Below, piece after piece: positions 12,602 to 15,367 of a stretch of 25,919 bases of DNA. Source of the stretch: a virus; IMG/VR virus record IMGVR_UViG_3300025012_000267, positions 1-25,919 of that record; one strand, written 5' to 3'. The translations under genes and the position numbers were made by a program. Numbering within the stretch: position 1 is the first letter of the stretch; each line of letters opens with the position of its first letter. The notes below the pieces were generated by a model that saw only the letters and a list, made by a program, of their open reading frames with translations, searched no databases and was not told the DNA's origin.

Positions 12602-13099
12602 TTATCCCAGCAGATCCGTGCGGAACTGCCGCAGGTCGAACTTCCTGCCCGGACAGCTCTTGTAGGGCGCAAGCTCCCTGTGCCCATAAACCCGCCCGAG
12701 GGTGATGCCGAAGACTTCCATCAACGAACGCACCAGCTTCAATCCCGCGGCCAACTGGGGCACCGGCACCGGCGTTTCGTCGAAGTTGCCTACAAAACAA
12801 ACACCCAGCGCGCGCTGGTTCATGCGCTGCTGGGTGCAGTGGGCGCCCGTTTCGGTCATCATGCGCCCGGTCAAAATCTCGTAGCGTTCACCCACCAGTT
12901 CGATGCCGAAATGGTATCCGATATCGGTCCAGGGCCGCTGCACCGGCATGCCGGCGTCGAGTAGCCCATTGACCTGTGCCGGATCGATCGTGAGCCCTTC
13001 GAGCCGGTATGACGTGTGATAGCGCCGGATGGCATTCCAACTGACGGTCAGCCCGTCAGGCGTAAGACTGTGGTGGATGACGATCGCGTCCGGCCGCAT
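12602..13099 (-). CDS. N-acetylmuramoyl-L-alanine amidase (Amidase_2/PGRP), phage endolysin
   Basis: A 165-residue zinc amidase that cuts the bond between muramic acid and the peptide stem. Zinc ligands fit the T7 lysozyme-like fold: IVIHHSLTPDG near residues 7-17 (His9 or His10), the VYGHRELAPYKSCPGRKFD block near the C-terminus (His and Cys ligands), with IGYHFGIE and ALGVCFVGNFDE between. There is no signal peptide, so it would need the nearby holin. The start at 13097-13099 has AAGGAG at seven bases; an ATG 19 codons upstream lies in the hairpin region and gives a Pro/Ser-rich extension. This is the first gene of the leftward late/lysis series. Confidence 0.9.
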   Translation of the reverse strand: MRPDAIVIHHSLTPDGLTVSWNAIRRYHTSYRLEGLTIDPAQVNGLLDAGMPVQRPWTDIGYHFGIELVGERYEILTGRMMTETGAHCTQQRMNQRALGVCFVGNFDETPVPVPQLAAGLKLVRSLMEVFGITLGRVYGHRELAPYKSCPGRKFDLRQFRTDLLG

Positions 13100-13280: not shown

Positions 13281-13360
13281 AGGTTGAAAAATGTCTGGTT
13301 GGCTTCGGTAATAAGGTCGTTGCGGACCTAAAAAATTATTTTCCCTGCCTCATTTTTTTC

Positions 13361-13425: not shown

Positions 13426-13629
13426 ATGCAAAAACAACTCATTATCGGCGACGACTACGGAACAATTTTCGGACTCGATCCAAAAAAAGGGCAGCACATC
13501 GTTTACCTGGGCGGTGTAAGATTCCGGCTGGCCCAAGGAGTACGAGAGGCAGAACGCGAATCTCAGGACACCTATGAAAAAATATTGGAGTACATCAACC
13601 AACCGAGCATCCATATGGGCCGCATGTAA
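13426..13629 (+). CDS. Small protein of unknown function, first gene of the plus-strand island
   Basis: A 67-residue protein (start MQKQLIIGDDYGTIFGLDP, then KKGQHIVYLGGVRFRLAQG and a charged helix REAERESQDTYEKILEYIN). The start has GGAGG seven bases upstream and follows a good promoter with a palindromic operator. I do not recognise a family. Beta-rich N-terminus and a helical C-terminus are suggested. It is transcribed against all surrounding phage genes and is paired with a zinc-ribbon/RHH gene 47 bases downstream, a layout seen in regulatory or toxin-antitoxin-like cassettes; that role is only a hypothesis. Confidence 0.72.
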   Translation: MQKQLIIGDDYGTIFGLDPKKGQHIVYLGGVRFRLAQGVREAERESQDTYEKILEYINQPSIHMGRM

Positions 13630-13676
13630 AAAATCTAAGGGGGCTGCGCATCCTACACGCGGAGAAAGATGTTGAT

Positions 13677-13979
13677 ATGCCAACACTTTGCGCAGCGTGT
13701 GGGAATTTGAAAGGCAGCATCGCATTGGGTGGGACACTACTTTGCCGCCAGTGCGAACCGGCGATATCGGCTGAGATAGCCAGCCTTCGGGCGGCAGGTA
13801 AGCCCGTAAACGTGGCGCACATAGCCCATCGGATTTACAAGGAGACAAATAGCGGAGGTAATTACCTGCTTCGGGATATCCCCCAGGAGCTTTGGGACAA
13901 AGCGAAACACCGGGCCGTCGATGACGCCGACTCTCTCCGTGATATAGTTTTAAAAGCCCTTCATGCATACCTAAAATAG
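13677..13979 (+). CDS. Zinc-ribbon plus ribbon-helix-helix-like regulator
   Basis: A 100-residue protein. The N-terminus has two CxxC pairs (C5/C8 and C23/C26) forming a zinc ribbon. The C-terminal 40 residues (GNYLLRDIPQELWDKAKH, then DADSLRDIVLKALHAYLK) fit a ribbon-helix-helix DNA-binding domain: a short beta strand, helix, turn and helix. Such proteins bind short palindromes as dimers, and a perfect 19-bp palindrome lies in the promoter of this two-gene unit, so autoregulation is plausible. The ribosome site GGAG is 12 bases upstream, rather far. A hairpin at 13989-14008 follows the stop. Confidence 0.75.
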   Translation: MPTLCAACGNLKGSIALGGTLLCRQCEPAISAEIASLRAAGKPVNVAHIAHRIYKETNSGGNYLLRDIPQELWDKAKHRAVDDADSLRDIVLKALHAYLK

Positions 13980-14015: not shown

Positions 14016-14231
14016 CTATCTTTGTACACCGTCATTGCCATGATCGAGGCTGACGATACCGTTGACCAGCCGCACCGGCAGTTCCCGTGAAATGGCTTCC
14101 ACATAACGATACACGGACCGTCTCGACAGCCCCGTCTTCTCCTGAATACTGCGCACCGAGACGCGGCCGCCGCAGGCGGATTGCAGCACACATATGATCC
14201 GGGTGGTTTTACTGACGGCGCTGTCGGTCAT
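14016..14231 (-). CDS. Small winged-helix/HTH DNA-binding protein, last gene of the leftward early run
   Basis: A 71-residue protein almost entirely formed by an HTH of the HTH_11/DeoR-like type: TTRIICVLQSACGGRVSVR, then IQEKTGLSRRSVYRYVEAI (recognition helix about residues 34-46), and a short wing (LPVRLVNGIVSLDHG). The start at 14229-14231 has GAGGAGTAATT before it, formed by the end of the preceding frame-split gene. It stands where Mu has its middle/late activators, so it may regulate the late genes, but it is not a Mor/C family member. Confidence 0.75.
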   Translation of the reverse strand: MTDSAVSKTTRIICVLQSACGGRVSVRSIQEKTGLSRRSVYRYVEAISRELPVRLVNGIVSLDHGNDGVQR

Positions 14232-14233
14232 AA

Positions 14234-14432
14234 TTACTCCTCGATCCGTTTCAGATCAGTACCCTTGATGAGCGCCCTGGAAACAGCACTATTGCCGGAT
14301 TTGAAGAACCATTGGCACAAGTATTGCCCCCCCCCAATCACTGAAAAACTCTTGCTGGACGGCCTTGATCACGCCGCTAAAGAACGGTCTCCGCGTCAGC
14401 TTTACTTTATCTCCGACTTTCAAATACTGCAT
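14234..14432 (-). CDS. Small phage protein split by a nine-base G/C run (frameshifted)
   Basis: From an ATG at 14430-14432 with AGGAGG upstream, the frame reads MQYLKVGDKVKLTRRPFFSG and then hits nine G's in the coding strand (14327-14335). In frame it stops at 14289 (47 residues). With one G fewer it would read QYLCQWFFKSGNSAVSRALI, then KGTDLKRIEE and stop at 14234-14236, exactly at the ribosome site of the next gene, giving 65 residues. The latter reading resembles small phage proteins of the VGDxVxLTRRPFFSG type. It could be a slippage-controlled gene, a phase-variable gene, a mutation or a sequence error. Confidence 0.65.
14327..14335. repeat. Nine-base C (plus) / G (minus) homopolymer inside a small gene
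   Basis: Nine consecutive C residues on the plus strand, read as G9 in the minus-strand gene at 14234-14432. Loss of one base restores a longer, better-looking reading frame. Such runs are known sites of replication or transcription slippage and of sequencing errors. Confidence 0.9.
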
Positions 14433-14602
14433 CGATCCTCCTTTCTGCATTCTCCGCATAGATTGAGCCGCCAGGTCTTCGGGTGGTAGGCTTCAGGGCC
14501 GCAAACCAACGGCGGGTAACGGTGGCAAAATCCCCATTCGGGCTTACTCTCTGGATTCATCGTCAGCCAAAAGATACATTCATGGCAGTATCCGATCGGC
14601 AT
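14420..14602 (-). CDS. Small cysteine-rich phage protein
   Basis: A 60-residue protein with seven cysteines: C6 and C9 (YCHECIFWL), C26 (EWGFCHRYPP), C34, C49 and C52 (NLCGECRKED) and C58. The order CxxCxFW ... GxCHRYPP ... CGEC is familiar from small conserved phage proteins that probably bind one or two zinc ions. The start at 14600-14602 has GGGGAG upstream. Its stop overlaps the start of the frame-split gene by 13 bp, so the two are likely coupled. Function unknown. Confidence 0.75.
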   Translation of the reverse strand: MPIGYCHECIFWLTMNPESKPEWGFCHRYPPLVCGPEAYHPKTWRLNLCGECRKEDRCSI

Positions 14603-14603
14603 T

Positions 14604-15146
14604 TCACTCCCCCTTGCGGCGCCGTCCCATGTTGCGCTCCCTGATCGCGCGCATCTGTTCGACGGTCATCAGCGGTTCAACCGGTGTCTCGACGTGCTCC
14701 CTGGTCTGCTCCGGAAGGCGCCCGGTGCGCTCGTCAGCGTTGTGGCGCACTTCCCTGGCGCGGTCCATTTCGTTGGCCAGATCATAGGCTACCTTTTTCA
14801 GGTAGCCGTGGGATGTCAGCGGCAGGCGCGCCGGAGGCCGCTGGGCAATCTGCTCCAGGGCCTGGGCCCATGCCGCAGGGCTGTTGGGCCGGGCCGGCAA
14901 CTTGTCCCACTGGATATGGCTGTCCATCACCATTTGCCGCAGTGAATGCAGCAGGCCCAAAGCCTTGGACCACGACACCCCGCGCTTGCTGCCGTCCGGA
15001 CGGAAAAGCGCCAGGTAAGGCAGCGCCCGCTTGGCCACGTCGGCCGGCATCTCGGCGACTATCATCAGGCACTGGCGGGCGTTGGCATCCGATGACCACG
15101 CCTCGGCGCTATGCATGGCGCCGCACGATGGGCAAACCAGTCTCAT
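14604..15146 (-). CDS. Phage early protein with N-terminal CxxC, function unknown
   Basis: A 180-residue protein starting MRLVCPSCGAMHSAEAWSSD (zinc-knuckle C5/C8), followed by an alpha-helical body (RALPYLALFRP, VSWSKALGLLHSLRQMV) and a charged tail with a REHVETPVEPLMTVEQMRAI segment and a basic end (RNMGRRRKGE). I recall similar proteins from Mu-like phages of deltaproteobacteria near the end of the early region, but no function is established; the tail resembles replication- or loader-associated proteins only in composition. The start overlaps the previous stop by 4 bp (ATGA). A longer reading would begin 29 codons upstream. Confidence 0.72.
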   Translation of the reverse strand: MRLVCPSCGAMHSAEAWSSDANARQCLMIVAEMPADVAKRALPYLALFRPDGSKRGVSWSKALGLLHSLRQMVMDSHIQWDKLPARPNSPAAWAQALEQIAQRPPARLPLTSHGYLKKVAYDLANEMDRAREVRHNADERTGRLPEQTREHVETPVEPLMTVEQMRAIRERNMGRRRKGE

Positions 15147-15367
15147 CGTTGCCCCCCCGTCATCCGCTCGCGTTCGAGGCGCGCAAAAGCGATGTTGATC
15201 CTGCGGTTTTTCTTCAGTCGGCCGACATGCCACCGGCCGCAGATGTCACAACGATAAGCGTGGACGTATTCGCCCCTTCGGTTAAGAACCGCCGCGGAGC
15301 ACCGGGCCGCTTTTTCAGACTGCTTGATTTTGCGCTGACAGGTCTCGAAGGCTTTGCGTTTGTCCAA
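15143..15367 (-). CDS. Small zinc-binding protein with CDICGRWH motif
   Basis: A 74-residue basic protein. The motif YRCDICGRWHVGR (C40, C43, H47) is a common phage pattern for a small zinc-binding fold. Flanking helices are strongly basic (RKIKQSEKAARCSA; RRINIAFARLERERM), suggesting nucleic acid contact. Translation seems to start at TTG (15365-15367), which has GGAGGTG eight bases upstream. It overlaps the downstream gene by 4 bp and follows the membrane/HTH gene by 4 bases. Function unknown. Confidence 0.72.
   Translation of the reverse strand: MDKRKAFETCQRKIKQSEKAARCSAAVLNRRGEYVHAYRCDICGRWHVGRLKKNRRINIAFARLERERMTGGQR

Follow-up and report, generated by a model that had tools for sequence, protein, structure and literature searches.

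The two reading frames on either side of a run of nine G's (the G9 run) in a Mu-like phage belong to one small protein, and their joined form is the intact gene. Profile scores, the ranking of open reading frames (ORFs), codon usage and a fold model support this conclusion. The simplest account of the break, with a probability of about 60%, is that the frame of a dispensable accessory gene was lost by accident or through an error in the consensus sequence.

The G9 run and its gene neighbourhood

The window, which is the whole stretch of DNA that was analysed, comprises 25,919 bases of the virus record IMGVR_UViG_3300025012_000267. Judged by its gene content, the source of the window is a Mu-like phage. 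The Mu-like hallmarks all lie on the minus strand and consist of the Mu transposase, an AAA protein, GemA, an amidase, the terminase, the Mu portal, gpT and the tail sheath; the presence of the transposase, GemA, portal, gpT and sheath places the window among the Mu-like phages. The small gene is part of a minus-strand row of small genes, which is given below together with the frames under study.

14604..15152, minus strand: phrog_2161 gene, upstream of the small gene; conserved neighbour, used for finding relatives
14420..14602, minus strand: 60-aa Cys-rich ORF, upstream; 13-base overlap with the start of the small gene
14234..14432, minus strand: whole small gene, 65 aa with the downstream frame added; weak likeness to DUF2158 (joined reading, profile match)
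14289..14432, minus strand: 47-codon frame as written, MQYLKVGDKVKLTRRPFFSGVIKAVQQEFFSDWGGAILVPMVLQIRQ, with its stop (ORF as assembled)
14327..14335, minus strand: G9 run, the point of frame loss, within Trp-Gly-Gly codons; C9 on the plus strand
14016..14231, minus strand: 71-aa HTH protein gene, downstream; PF08279 E 2.5e-5, slightly short of the curated cut-off

The small gene starts with an ATG at 14432-14430, and AAGGAGG lies immediately upstream. An earlier note on this DNA, which named no strand, had stated that nine G's lead to a stop after 47 residues and that the frame one base over continues to KGTDLKRIEE, with its stop in the ribosome site of the HTH gene. Both statements are correct: as written, the frame runs for 47 codons before its stop, and the joined reading gives 65 aa with KGTDLKRIEE as its C-terminus and a TAA at 14236-14234. 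This TAA adjoins GGAG inside the ribosome site of the HTH gene, and two bases separate it from the HTH ATG at 14231.

No G/C run in the window is longer than the G9 run, and no other exceeds 7. Dinucleotide shuffles of the window lead to about two expected G8 matches, so the G9 run is not improbable by composition alone. G/C runs of at least 9 occur seven times in 1.80 Mb of the window and related loci, the G9 run counted, which is about 0.1 per 26 kb. The longest G/C run among the related loci is a C15 run at position 16382 of L106, a Verrucomicrobiota Mu-like locus. In another part of the window, at 13426-13979, two small ORFs on the plus strand oppose the direction of the neighbouring genes; one of them encodes 100 aa, Cys-rich at the start and Arc-like at the end (phrog_6506, E 0.00096).

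Evidence that the two halves form one gene

A common family signal is present on both sides of the G9 run. The N half and the C half each match their own end of the DUF2158-like (PF09926/phrog_3261) profile. On our own DUF2158 profile, which was built from the proteins of DUF2158 loci after the family had been picked post hoc, the joined protein scored 14.7 bits, compared with 5.1 for the N half, 9.9 for the C half and 4.2 for the 47-aa form. When the N half was fused to random window peptides (2000 chimeras) or the C half was shuffled (1000 shuffles), no sequence reached 14.7 bits. When 38,260 six-frame ORFs from the window and relatives were scanned with the same profile, the downstream half ranked first, though with an E-value of 0.53. 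An independent PHROG scan, which offsets the post-hoc choice of DUF2158 only partly, gave phrog_3261 as the top match of the joined protein (E 0.022, weak taken alone) and no phrog_3261 match for the 47-aa form. phrog_3261 and PF09926 match the same two loci, and phrog_3261 is therefore DUF2158-like.

Codon usage points in the same direction. The downstream frame scored -0.16, compared with -0.66 and -0.57 for the other two frames and an off-frame 95th percentile of about -0.25; its usage is thus favoured over that of the other frames, yet atypical for the phage. In addition, C39, W41 and F42, which are invariant in the DUF2158 alignment, all lie past the G9 run. Together with the fold model described below, the profile and chimera tests, ORF ranking and codon usage bear out the earlier proposal that both frames are one gene.

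Family membership and predicted fold

The joined protein resembles DUF2158 (PF09926, phrog_3261; E. coli YodC) in its KVGDxVxL start, in a CQWF about 32 residues further on and in its similar length, and GDxVxL and CxWF stand at the spacing of the DUF2158 profile. In contrast to DUF2158, it lacks KSGGPxM, which is replaced by TRRPFFSG in the alignment, and its identity to the family is 17-28%. It matched no Pfam family and fell below the PF09926 cut-off, and its membership of DUF2158 is putative.

The joined protein is predicted, with moderate confidence, to fold as an SH3-like barrel built from both halves. The model made with the DUF2158 alignment, on which it leans, reached a pLDDT of 69, compared with 47 for the poor single-sequence fold, and contains a five-strand barrel with three strands past the G9 run. 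The predicted fold weakly resembles SH3-like folds, namely the Lon-enhancing factor 5ycq and NusG/Spt5 domains (best E 0.024). A sequence search for a DUF2158 protein with a solved structure found none.

Copies and relatives

No close homologue of the small protein was found in viral contigs, phages, plasmids or about 670 genomes. Those weak matches to the protein that were inspected had no matching small gene, and an exact search with the flanks returned four matches, all by chance. No second copy of the G9 run was found, and a single copy of a single length was seen.

A near-identical phage contig, L036, comes from a MAG labelled Arenimonas and differs from the window by 11 mismatches over 13.1 kb, with zero indels except scaffold joins; the aligned part includes a T9 run. 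L036 ends at window position 13342, which is 985 bases short of the G9 run, and therefore cannot give the run length. Seven of the 11 mismatches are clustered within about 20 bases of the amidase gene (window 12881-12899), a pattern suggestive of local recombination or a mixed strain. Around 2991 and 11187, L036 has NN where 121 and 103 window bases are missing; these positions are scaffold joins, not deletions.

Comparison of the tract in relatives, which the earlier note had suggested, showed that the run is not kept in distant homologues. All 40 DUF2158 genes are unbroken, and their longest G/C run is 6; they are distant relatives and bear on the family, not on the present phage lineage. 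No convincing DUF2158 gene was found inside the related Mu-like loci.

Origin of the frame break

The small gene would be an accessory (moron-like) gene of the Mu-like phage, and its product may be an SH3-like barrel protein of about 65 residues, distantly like DUF2158/YodC. The assembled sequence is one base out of frame at the G run in the Trp-Gly-Gly codons, most probably through ordinary, non-programmed slippage. The outcome would be a genuine frameshift allele or, alternatively, a wrong run length in the assembled consensus. We infer an accident rather than a switch, as well as the dispensability of the gene and the fold of its product. Relatives sharing the phrog_2161 neighbour have other genes at the small-gene position, as is expected of accessory genes. 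Accessory ORFs of Mu-like phages are similarly short and variable, lie among conserved Mu-like genes and differ between relatives (PMC4378225), whereas the small gene here is frameshifted as assembled. Against an accident, related phage loci seldom contain a G/C run of 9, and G/C runs of a similar length class vary in Bordetella (PMC1891110). The zero indels against L036, T9 run included, show that the sequence is not generally indel-prone, which weakens the pure-error version.

Phase variation, in which slippage of replication at the G run would turn the small protein on and off reversibly and translational coupling may tune the HTH protein, is a rather unlikely alternative to an accident. 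The run lies inside a coding frame with coding on both sides, and the small-gene stop falls in the ribosome site that serves the HTH start. In Bordetella pertussis, C/G runs of about this length show polymorphism, which is reversible for some of them, and a single base in a G/C run of a coding frame likewise changes the product (PMC1891110); in contrast to that system, no length variants were observed here and the run is not conserved. Nine G's are also short for a dedicated switch, and a small non-surface barrel protein would be an atypical phase-variable target. Replication slippage at the run is possible, and an effect of the small gene on the HTH gene is plausible solely because of their two-base spacing. 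The fuller picture of a temperate Mu-like phage whose G-run switch turns the barrel protein on and off, while coupled translation sets the level of the HTH regulator, is less probable still. The earlier claim of slippage-controlled or phase-variable expression gained no positive support from the single copy, the unbroken distant relatives and the absence of a predicted RNA structure. If run length varied among phage copies, the locus would be a phage-encoded phase switch beside a regulator.

Programmed recoding at the G9 run is unlikely and has a slim chance of being the explanation. It would require the ribosome to shift by +1 or -2, or RNA polymerase to slip on the run, so that an unchanged sequence yields both the 47-aa and the longer protein. 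The length of the run allows re-pairing, and Mu tail genes use a -2 shift (PMC4378225). However, no stimulatory RNA structure, a mark of programmed ribosomal frameshifting, is predicted downstream of the run (z -0.33), and the 47-aa form would be without half of the barrel. G/C runs are reported not to be prone to transcription slippage, with no insertions at such runs in E. coli or Buchnera (PMC5574713), and the lack of conservation among the 40 DUF2158 genes counts against recoding as well. The least probable reading takes the 47-aa frame, with its strong ribosome site and its stop, as the real gene and the downstream open frame as a product of chance. The profile, chimera and codon tests favour the joined reading. 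As things stand, gene callers would give a 47-aa protein where the family relatives point to one of 65 aa.
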